Assembly: GCA_030627235.1 (NCBI GenBank)
Contig: DAOUSL010000017.1
Coordinates: 1 to 36,096, forward strand
Source of the DNA: Thioploca sp.
GTDB lineage: Bacteria > Pseudomonadota > Gammaproteobacteria > Beggiatoales > Beggiatoaceae
Direction: 5' to 3'
Length of the DNA stretch: 36,096 bases
In this document: positions 6,015-23,353 of the stretch, piece after piece
Position numbering within the stretch: the first letter of the stretch is position 1
How the letters are laid out: each line of letters begins with the position of its first letter
The notes under the pieces: generated by a model
What the model saw: the letters and a program-made list of their open reading frames with translations, nothing else
What the model was told of the DNA's origin: nothing
The model's database searches: none
Program-made: the position numbers and the translations under genes

Positions 6015-6959
6015 TTATTCTATAATTGGAAAAACATCTAGAACTGAAAATGATAATGGTTCTCTACCAGGAATCATCTTCATTTTGACTTCATAAGTAG
6101 TTACACTGCTATCAAATGCACTTGCTACATCAATGGCTGGGATTGATAAACTACCATCGCTTAATGAAAAAAATCCGTGGACTCGTAATGGACTACAGGA
6201 AGTATCAGAAACCAGAATTGGACATTCATTGCTATCTATACCACAAGAACTTGGCTTTTGTTTGCATTGCGAGATAGTTTCTTGAATAGCTTGATTAATA
6301 TTAGGATTAACAATAATTCCATAAGAACCTGGATCAGTTTGGCATTTTTGAATACCTAATTCTGTAGAGCCATCTGTATTATAATCTACTGTTATTCCAC
6401 AAGAACTTGGATCAGATTGACATTGTGCCATGCCATCAGCAATAGAACCATCAGTATTTTGATACACTGTTATTCCACAGTCATCTGGAGAATCTTGACA
6501 TTGTTGACGACCTTCTGCTGTAGAACCATCATTATTTGGTTCAAGTTCAATATCACAAGATTCTGGATCAGCTTGACATTGTTGCTTGCCTTCTTCAATA
6601 GAACCATCATCATTAGTAGCTATATCACAAGAACTTGGATCAGCTTGACATTGAGCAATTCCAACTTCAGTAGAGCCATCATCATTAGGGCCACGTTGAA
6701 TACCACAAGATTCAGGAAAGTCTCTACATTCTGCTTTTATTGCTTCTTCATTAATCTCAATAGTAGAATTAATTGAAATACCACAAGCCTCTGGGTTATT
6801 TTTACAATATTCCATGGTTTTGGTTAAGGCAGCATAAAAACCTTCTACATATAATGAATCAGTATTGGTTGGAGCTGGTACAGTGTTATCTTCTTCTTCA
6901 GCAGCATATGAGTTAAAAGTAAATAAGATAATGCAAATAAATATTATTCGGTTATTCAT
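6015..6959 (-). CDS. Secreted protein with eight C-x3-P-x2-C repeats
   Basis: 314 residues with a signal peptide (MNNRIIFICIILFTFNSYAA), so exported. Residues about 50-245 are made of eight units of 25-31 residues, each carrying Cys-x3-Pro-x2-Cys-Gly/Asp-Ile (for example CQADPSSCDI, CQSDPSSCGI) followed by a linker containing NDGST or TDGSI. In the seventh unit the second cysteine is Tyr (CQTDPGSYGI). A C-terminal part of about 70 residues has no repeats and contains another cysteine pair (CPILVSDTSC) and beta-like sequence. The acidic linkers and paired cysteines suggest a disulfide-braced or calcium-binding rod, but no function is known. It is convergent with the kinase and has no obvious operon partner. 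Confidence 0.85.
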   Translation of the reverse strand: MNNRIIFICIILFTFNSYAAEEEDNTVPAPTNTDSLYVEGFYAALTKTMEYCKNNPEACGISINSTIEINEEAIKAECRDFPESCGIQRGPNDDGSTEVGIAQCQADPSSCDIATNDDGSIEEGKQQCQADPESCDIELEPNNDGSTAEGRQQCQDSPDDCGITVYQNTDGSIADGMAQCQSDPSSCGITVDYNTDGSTELGIQKCQTDPGSYGIIVNPNINQAIQETISQCKQKPSSCGIDSNECPILVSDTSCSPLRVHGFFSLSDGSLSIPAIDVASAFDSSVTTYEVKMKMIPGREPLSFSVLDVFPIIE

Positions 6960-15768: not shown

Positions 15769-16581
15769 ATGAACAAATCGAAAAATTTACATTATCCTGA
15801 TGATTTTATAAATAAATTTATATGTGGAAATACTGTTGATGTGATGAAACAGATTCCTAATGAAAGTGTGGATTTGGTTGTAACTTCTCCACCATACAAT
15901 CTTAAAAATTCAACTGGCAATGGAATGAAAGATGGTAGGGGAGGGAAGTGGCCAAATGCAGCATTAGTTAATGGTTATTCACATCACAATGATAATATGC
16001 CGCATGAAAAATACACTGCATGGCAAATAGAATGTTTAGTTGAAATGTTGCGTATTATTTCAGATGATGGAGCGATTTTTTATAATCATAAATGGCGTGT
16101 TCAAGCAGGTTTATTGCAGGACAGACATGATATTGTTTCAGGTTTTCCTGTTAGACAAATAATTATTTGGAAACGAAAAGGAGGAATAAATTTTAATCCT
16201 GGATATTTTTTACCAACTTATGAGGTTATTTATCTTATTGTTAAATCAAAATTTAAATTAGAAAAAAAAGCAAACGCATATGGTGATGTTTGGGAATTTG
16301 AGCAAGAAAGTAAAAATAAACATCCTGCCCCTTTTCCAGAAGAACTAATTGAACGAATCATATCATCTACAACTTCAAATATTATTCTTGATCCTTTCAT
16401 GGGTTCTGGTACTACTGCTGTTGTGGCAAAAAAACTTAATAGAAAATTTATAGGTATTGATATATCACCTGAATATTGTCAAATGGCAGAAAAACGTCTA
16501 ATAAATCCGTTATCTATCGAAAAAAGAAAAAAGAAAAAAACAGAAATGAATCAAGTTTCTCTTTTTGATGAAATTGGATAA
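15769..16581 (+). CDS. Type II DNA methyltransferase, beta class
   Basis: 270 residues. Motif IV TSPPYN (39-44) precedes the S-adenosylmethionine motif DPFMGSGTT (208-216) and FIGIDISPEYC, so motif order is IV then I, the beta class. The SPPY form is usual for N4-cytosine enzymes, though some beta-class adenine enzymes share it. The target-recognition region lies between (about 50-190). A three-base gap separates it from an MvaI/BcnI-like endonuclease, whose known partners are N4-cytosine methyltransferases of CCWGG or CCSGG sites; the site here cannot be read from sequence. It protects host DNA from the paired enzyme. The pair is inserted between era and ccmA and flanked by repeat elements, a sign of acquisition. 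Confidence 0.92.
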   Translation: MNKSKNLHYPDDFINKFICGNTVDVMKQIPNESVDLVVTSPPYNLKNSTGNGMKDGRGGKWPNAALVNGYSHHNDNMPHEKYTAWQIECLVEMLRIISDDGAIFYNHKWRVQAGLLQDRHDIVSGFPVRQIIIWKRKGGINFNPGYFLPTYEVIYLIVKSKFKLEKKANAYGDVWEFEQESKNKHPAPFPEELIERIISSTTSNIILDPFMGSGTTAVVAKKLNRKFIGIDISPEYCQMAEKRLINPLSIEKRKKKKTEMNQVSLFDEIG

Positions 16582-16584
16582 TAA

Positions 16585-17358
16585 ATGAAAACATATACAA
16601 AAAATAGCTTGATTAAAGCACTTATAGATATTCGTTCTCAAGGATGGATTCTAACAGGAAGAAAAAATAATGATGGATGTATTGGCAACACATTAGAAGA
16701 CTTGTTAGGAATAGAAGAAAATAATTTACCTATACCAAATGCTGCTGAATGGGAATTAAAAGCACAGAAAAAAGATACTACATCATTGATTACTTTATTT
16801 CACATGGAACCGTCTCCACGTGCATATAAATTTGTACCATCTATTTTGTTACCAGAATTTGGTTGGAAACATAAAGAAGCAGGAAATAAATATCCAGATA
16901 ATGAAAAAAGTTTTAGACAGACGATAAATGCATCTAAGTATAGTAATAGAGGTTTTACTGTAAAAGTGGATAGAAATGACAGGAAGGTTTTAATCGATTT
17001 TGATTCTAATCACATTGTAGATAAAGATCATCCTGAATGGATAAATTCTGTTTTATATAAAAATCTTGATCCAAGACCATATTGGGGATTTGATGACTTA
17101 TATCATAAAGCAGGAACAAAACTACATAATTGTTTTTTTGTCCGAGCTGAATCAAAAAAAATAAATGGGATACTTCATTTTCATTACCAAGATATATACA
17201 TGTTAAAACAATTTAACTTAAATAAGTTTATTTATGCTATAGAAAGTGGAAATGTCTATGTAGATTTTGATGCTAGAACAGGGCATAATCATGGAACAAA
17301 ATTTAGGCTAAAAAGAGAAGCTTTCATCAATTTATATTCAGAAGTTAAAAAATATTGA
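16585..17358 (+). CDS. MvaI/BcnI-family restriction endonuclease
   Basis: 257 residues, close to MvaI (about 246). It would cut unmethylated DNA at the site protected by the upstream methyltransferase. The family core is clear: GNTLEDLLGIEENNLPIPNA at about 34-53, then EWELKAQ with the active-site E57-x-K59, then SLITLFHMEPSPRA (67-80) and KFVPSILLPEFGW. MvaI and BcnI act as monomers and nick each strand in turn. The reading frame is intact with no stop or frameshift, so the system may be active. The ATG lies three bases after the methyltransferase stop. Transcription of both from one promoter is likely; no controller gene is seen. Confidence 0.9.
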   Translation: MKTYTKNSLIKALIDIRSQGWILTGRKNNDGCIGNTLEDLLGIEENNLPIPNAAEWELKAQKKDTTSLITLFHMEPSPRAYKFVPSILLPEFGWKHKEAGNKYPDNEKSFRQTINASKYSNRGFTVKVDRNDRKVLIDFDSNHIVDKDHPEWINSVLYKNLDPRPYWGFDDLYHKAGTKLHNCFFVRAESKKINGILHFHYQDIYMLKQFNLNKFIYAIESGNVYVDFDARTGHNHGTKFRLKREAFINLYSEVKKY

Positions 17359-23020: not shown

Positions 23021-23178
23021 TATTCATATTTTGAATGGACTTGAATTTTTATAACTTACCCTGATATTAGAAACTAATGGATAGATATTATCCATAATGA
23101 TAGAAAAAAGTTTGTTTTAAGCTAGACATATATATTTTTTAGTGTATAATGGACTTATTGAATATTTTTGAGTCGAGT

Positions 23179-23248
23179 GGGGTTGTAGCTCAGTTGGAAG
23201 AGCATGGCAATGCCAAGGTCAGGAGTTCGATCCTCCTTGACTCCACCA
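23179..23248 (+). tRNA. tRNA-Ala(GGC)-like gene, six bases short in the anticodon arm
   Basis: The acceptor GGGGTTG/TGACTCC has the G3-U70 pair that marks alanine tRNAs. D arm GCTC/GAGC, variable AGGTC, T arm AGGAG/CTCCT with loop TTCGATC, discriminator A and encoded CCA are all normal. But the total is 70 bases, not 76. Between the D arm and the variable loop there is only ATGGCAATGCCA, in place of a 5+7+5 anticodon arm. Adding one TGGCAA unit would restore a perfect arm TGGCA-ATGGCAA-TGCCA with anticodon GGC, so loss of one repeat unit by slippage is the simplest reading. Alternatively it reads as tRNA-Gly(GCC) with no variable loop, which is structurally worse. Likely a non-functional gene, unless the sequence is wrong here. 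Confidence 0.75.
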
Positions 23249-23252
23249 CACT

Positions 23253-23327
23253 GCCCTGATAGCTCAGTCGGATAAGAGCGTCCCCCTCCTAAGGGGAAGG
23301 CCAGAGGTTCAATTCCTCTTCAGGGCG
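23253..23327 (+). tRNA. tRNA-Arg(CCT)
   Basis: 75 bases. Acceptor GCCCTGA/TCAGGGC, D arm GCTC/GAGC with loop AGTCGGATAA, anticodon arm TCCCC/GGGGA with loop CTCCTAA (anticodon CCT), variable AGGCC, T arm AGAGG/CCTCT with loop TTCAATT; all stems pair. The discriminator is G and the next bases are ATG, so CCA is not encoded, unlike the tRNA four bases upstream. It would read the AGG codon. Confidence 0.93.
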
Positions 23328-23353
23328 ATGATTTCTCCTTGTGTTGTGTCGTT

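Follow-up and report, generated by a model that had tools for sequence, protein, structure and literature searches.

The window examined here, a 36,096-nucleotide stretch of Thioploca sp. DNA, carries on its forward strand a 70-base tRNA-like element in which the arm that should hold the anticodon is too short to do so. The locus raises the question of which tRNA this once was and whether it is now a dead gene or an RNA with a role outside translation.

An alanine tRNA-like element with a truncated anticodon arm

The acceptor, D and T arms of the element are of the tRNA-Ala type, and it retains both an encoded CCA and the G3-U70 acceptor pair, which has a role in recognition by AlaRS; these features, which an earlier note had described, are seen directly in the sequence. 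After A26, just 11 bases, TGGCAATGCCA, stand where 17 are expected, and this remnant can be drawn as TGGC-AAT-GCCA, with 4 pairs and a 3-base loop. The element contains no unknown bases (N). Its Rfam tRNA match of 48.3 bits (E = 1.6e-7) exceeds the gathering score of 29 and is therefore no chance match. Of the features expected of a functional tRNA it thus reaches the Rfam cut-off, and it lacks a 7-base anticodon loop with U33 and an anticodon. ARAGORN, a tRNA finder of the kind that the earlier note had proposed to run, leaves the element uncalled, its sole call in the window being the tRNA-Arg(CCT) that follows. The positions of these features are collected in Table 1.

Table 1. Features of the tRNA locus, in positions of the window
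Feature	Position	Strand	Evidence
Very probable tRNA-Ala(CGC) pseudogene, 70 bases with encoded CCA	23179..23248	+	Rfam tRNA, 48.3 bits; alignment to 17 intact tRNA-Ala(CGC), six columns missing; no ARAGORN call
Anticodon-arm remnant TGGC-AAT-GCCA; deletion junction near 23208/23209, ambiguous by two bases (GC)	23205..23215	+	Sequence; GTTCGC at columns 31-36 in 17/17 homologues
tRNA-Arg(CCT), intact; next gene, 3-4 bases past the pseudogene CCA	23252..23328	+	ARAGORN; Rfam, 68.9 bits
Promoter-like site TAGACA-16-TATAAT, upstream of pseudogene and tRNA-Arg(CCT)	23123..23150	+	Consensus scan, 11/12 matches

Elsewhere in the window, two adjoining open reading frames (15769-17358, + strand) encode, judged from their translations, a DNA methyltransferase-like protein, with a DPFMGSGTT motif that we take to be a mark of such enzymes, and a partner that is possibly its restriction enzyme. 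The translation of another frame (6015-6959, - strand) is built of repeat units of the CQADPESCDI / CQSDPSSCGI type.

The lost bases held a CGC anticodon

To identify what had been lost, the window tRNA pair was used as a query against 57 genomes, 47 of which gave matches, and the loci of 30, the window's own among them, were taken for comparison. ARAGORN finds a tRNA-Ala(CGC) in 17 of the 30, lying at most 100 bases from tRNA-Arg(CCT) in 14 of these 17. When aligned with the 17 intact genes, the element lacks exactly columns 31-36, which read G, T, T, C, G, C in every homologue and include U33 and the whole CGC anticodon. The earlier note was thus right that a tRNA-Ala gene has lost six bases of its anticodon arm and that the product could not decode. 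Because the homologues beside tRNA-Arg(CCT) read CGC and because it is columns 31-36 that are missing, the element is, on alignment and synteny, a former tRNA-Ala(CGC) and not a tRNA-Ala(GGC). It resembles the bacterial tRNA-Ala(CGC) isoacceptor in its place beside tRNA-Arg(CCT), its acceptor, D and T arms and its encoded CCA, and differs from it in lacking the six columns that would let it decode. It also departs from the homologues at three further columns: A at column 20 (G in 16 of the 17, T in one), A at column 26 (G in all 17) and T at column 66 (C in all 17). By our reading of the fold and the alignment, none of these substitutions breaks a cloverleaf pair, so some residual constraint on the element may exist.

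The earlier note had instead taken the lost anticodon to be GGC and the loss to be slippage between two TGGCAA units. One extra TGGCAA does restore a formally perfect arm, as simple arithmetic checked by eye confirms. However, GTTCGC fills columns 31-36 in all 17 homologues, so the lost bases were GTTCGC rather than TGGCAA; a second TGGCAA unit is absent from the homologues; the gene that relatives have at this place reads CGC; and the genome's own tRNA-Ala(GGC), found in the search that the note had called for, is a separate and intact gene adjoining tRNA-Glu (G000:C222:12146-12218). Together, the homologues and the separate GGC gene rule this origin out, and we give it next to no probability. 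The two bases just before the gap, GC, are the same as the last two lost bases, and this repeat at the gap edges makes a short-repeat or hairpin-tip deletion a plausible source of the former tRNA-Ala(CGC)'s lesion. The six bases missing from the tip of the hairpin comprise the final base of the stem and loop bases one to five; as these include U33 and the whole anticodon, the RNA cannot decode.

Three different lesions at one locus in the genus

Four congeneric genomes have a readable site, and in these the gene is intact once and broken three times, each time differently. Apart from the window genome (G000), these are G002, whose tRNA-Ala(CGC) is intact, G003, whose copy carries numerous substitutions and a deletion in the T arm, and G004, where just an acceptor-stem remnant, consisting of the two stem ends with CCA, is left upstream of tRNA-Arg(CCT). 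The tRNA-Arg(CCT) gene itself is intact in G002, G003 and G004. The window gene carries an inactivating lesion, and its damaged form is not conserved. At the position of the window element's gap, the G003 copy has retained six bases, in changed form, and the inactivations in the window genome and in G003 therefore look independent. Three different lesions among four sites point to relaxed selection at this locus and not to a conserved new role. Between the window and G002, identity is 65/70 over the element, 108/144 and 116/145 over its flanks and 73/77 over tRNA-Arg; the high identity of the element relative to the flanks suggests that the break in the window gene is probably recent. In the fifth congener, G001 (63% complete), neither a match to the tRNA pair nor a tRNA-Ala(CGC) was found. 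An Rfam search (E up to 10) of 11 tRNA-Arg(CCT) loci from genomes without tRNA-Ala(CGC) saw only tRNA-Arg, although the decayed G003 copy and the G004 stub also go undetected by such a search. We consider it very probable that the window element is a young pseudogene of tRNA-Ala(CGC).

As to its expression, sites of the TAGACA-16-TATAAT type number 2 in the region, against a shuffle mean of 2.0, so there is no enrichment; similar promoter-like sites stand at the equivalent place in three other congeneric sequences, as judged by eye. Since the element lies between such a site and the surviving tRNA-Arg(CCT), it is probably still transcribed, presumably at the 5' end of a shared transcript with tRNA-Arg(CCT), after which the faulty RNA would be degraded. 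In isolated folding, the cloverleaf of the element with its 4-pair mini-arm lies 4.0 kcal/mol above the minimum-energy fold. The cloverleaf of the intact G002 tRNA likewise lies 3.2 kcal/mol above its minimum, and the fold test therefore distinguishes the two only by their acceptor-pair probabilities (0.00-0.02 for the element, 0.49-0.54 for the G002 tRNA). The predicted folding away from the cloverleaf makes quick turnover of the RNA likely.

Another possibility is that the gene is an intact tRNA-Ala(CGC) from which an assembly or consensus error has removed six bases. Errors do arise in this arm, which forms a hairpin: a pattern scan for loss of the anticodon arm returned 18 stretches in genome_contigs, nine of which have N within the arm, so that scaffolding gaps seem to fall within anticodon arms. 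The window element, however, is free of N, its three further substitutions are unmatched in any of the 17 homologues, and the same gene was independently lost in two congeners; we regard such an error as very unlikely. Alternatively, the element could work as an RNA in some role other than translation: a tRNA-like molecule without an anticodon, charged with alanine, that donates the amino acid, acts as an AlaRS decoy or has a regulatory part. Its acceptor stem with G3-U70, its T and D arms and its CCA are kept with their cloverleaf pairs unbroken, there is a promoter-like site upstream, and one study (PMC3399842) documents a pseudo-tRNA of a bacterium that acts outside translation. Yet kept arms are equally expected of a young pseudogene, the isolated RNA is predicted to abandon the cloverleaf, and its fold is ordinary, with 22 of 200 shuffles folding at least as well (z = -1.44). 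The form is also not conserved, one congener having a normal tRNA and two a decayed copy or remnant. Such a function is, in our estimate, extremely improbable. Of the options left by the earlier note, that of a dead gene is the one retained, and a decoy or another role finds little favour with the element decayed or nearly gone in two of the three other congeners that have a readable site. We put just as little trust in a combined reading, in which the lineage reads GCG without tRNA-Ala(CGC) or cmo5U34 and every tRNA-Arg(CCT) transcript yields a 70-nt RNA that undergoes maturation, receives alanine and works as an alanyl-RNA without decoding, for instance as an amino-acid donor or AlaRS buffer.

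Among known systems, the pseudogene reading places the element near the bacterial tRNA pseudogenes which one study (PMC9858662) defines as tRNAscan-SE loci without an assigned anticodon. It shares with them a tRNA-like locus with no anticodon, although it was identified by Rfam and homologues rather than by tRNAscan-SE, and those described there are as a rule longer, whereas the window element is shorter than a normal tRNA gene. The tRNA-Other of Bacillus cereus, a pseudo-tRNA described in PMC3399842, is likewise tRNA-like and outside translation, but it has a Trp anticodon, is expressed and shows a deletion phenotype; it demonstrates that roles of this sort exist, yet the evidence on the window element gives no pointer to one. 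Text searches by subject, not organism, found no paper on this tRNA locus. Among phage records, a blastn search with 23160-23260 as query found 3 partial matches of 60-80% identity, annotated as tRNA-Ala and none of them in the short form seen here.

The same pattern scan returned 23 short-armed stretches in viral_contigs, and none of its hits in either set is the window locus, although the window genome's own records possibly lay outside the scan. All 23 viral stretches and the other nine from genome_contigs were inspected; the nine N-bearing loci (L196, L197, L199, L201, L203, L206, L207, L211 and L212) have two unknown bases there. In 4 of the 23 viral stretches (L216:4753-4793, L227:11368-11408, L231:1088-1128 and L235:889-929), only GCTAG replaces base 26 and the anticodon arm of a tRNA-like element. 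ARAGORN calls none of these four, although L235 has 20 other tRNAs. The GCTAG elements would follow from a palindromic stem with two CTAGA units that underwent a deletion between them.

The isoacceptor, its wobble-modification background and the remaining tRNA set

By pattern search, 29 of the 57 genomes, 19 of them among the 36 of the family, have an intact tRNA-Ala(CGC); for the remaining 17 of the family, DNA searches (13 genomes in one set and four in another) followed by ARAGORN recovered no CGC gene. The isoacceptor thus appears dispensable, and in this AT-rich lineage it would be so with GCG rare and presumably read by tRNA-Ala(UGC), while the decoding of GCC and GCU would fall to tRNA-Ala(GGC). 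CmoB, the cmo5U synthase, scored as TIGR00452 above its curated cut-off, is found in 12 of the 57 genomes (10/36 in one batch and 2/21 in another; 8/36 within the family), G023 and G034 among them. CmoB and an intact tRNA-Ala(CGC) never co-occur (0/12 with CmoB, 29/45 without), with Fisher p values of 4e-5 for the 57 genomes and 8e-4 for the 36 of the family when genomes, some of them incomplete, are treated as independent of kinship. This exclusion fits the finding of an E. coli study (PMC9981150) that losing modifying enzymes together with non-target tRNAs is costlier than losing either alone. Neither CmoB nor tRNA-Ala(CGC) was found in nine family genomes (G000, G001, G003, G004, G005, G007, G012, G017 and G031). 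Since the window genome is one of these, the presumed reader of GCG there is tRNA-Ala(UGC), a tRNA that the assembly also lacks. TrhO (PF17773), considered as a source of a different U34 modification, turned up in 0 of 12 genomes; its control gave a positive result in 6 of 14.

Codon usage was considered as a cause of the loss. Within the genus, GCG makes up 5.3% of 1578 sampled alanine codons in the window genome, 3.4% of 379 in G001, 4.3% of 537 in G003 and 7.1% of 893 in G004, and 9.0% of 813 in G002, where the gene is intact. This trend fits such a cause, but the comparison across 32 sampled genomes gives it no support: mean GCG shares are 0.190 with the gene and 0.192 without (p = 0.72), and the share tracks GC3 (rho = 0.79). 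G017, with neither tRNA-Ala(CGC) nor CmoB found, has a GCG share of 35.6%.

With 150 of 362 first-look candidates scored, the window genome gave 39 Rfam tRNA matches, one of which is the element itself. ARAGORN typed the other 38, among which the only alanine tRNA is GGC and neither Val(CAC) nor Pro(CGG) occurs. In G014, the 16S gene has tRNA-Ala(TGC) and tRNA-Ile(GAT) next to it; when these two tRNAs served as DNA queries, neither was found in G000-G004, the best matches in G000 being tRNA-Ala(GGC) and a CAT tRNA. The 16S rRNA search, which found the gene in G014, recovered it in none of the five genomes G000-G004, although it also missed 5 of 14 control genomes and the absence is therefore not firm. 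As tRNA-Ala(UGC) lies beside 16S in relatives and is needed by the cell, we infer that the cell has the rRNA operon with this tRNA and that the assembly has failed to capture it. Elsewhere in the tRNA set, a group I intron (Rfam RF00028, 65.8 bits; L053:1678-1928, approximately G000:C149:27917-28167) lies inside tRNA-Leu(UAA) after the anticodon bases TTAA; this gene adjoins tRNA-Gly and tRNA-Cys, and the equivalent gene of G001 is intronless.

Taken as a gene by itself, the element is an ordinary pseudogene. Its meaning lies in the genus, where one intact copy and three lesions catch the loss of a redundant tRNA isoacceptor in progress, and in the tie between the loss of tRNA-Ala(CGC) and the wobble-modification background. 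Because the genus is among those in which neither CmoB nor tRNA-Ala(CGC) was found, natural genomes exist for a direct test of GCG reading by U34 without cmo5U.
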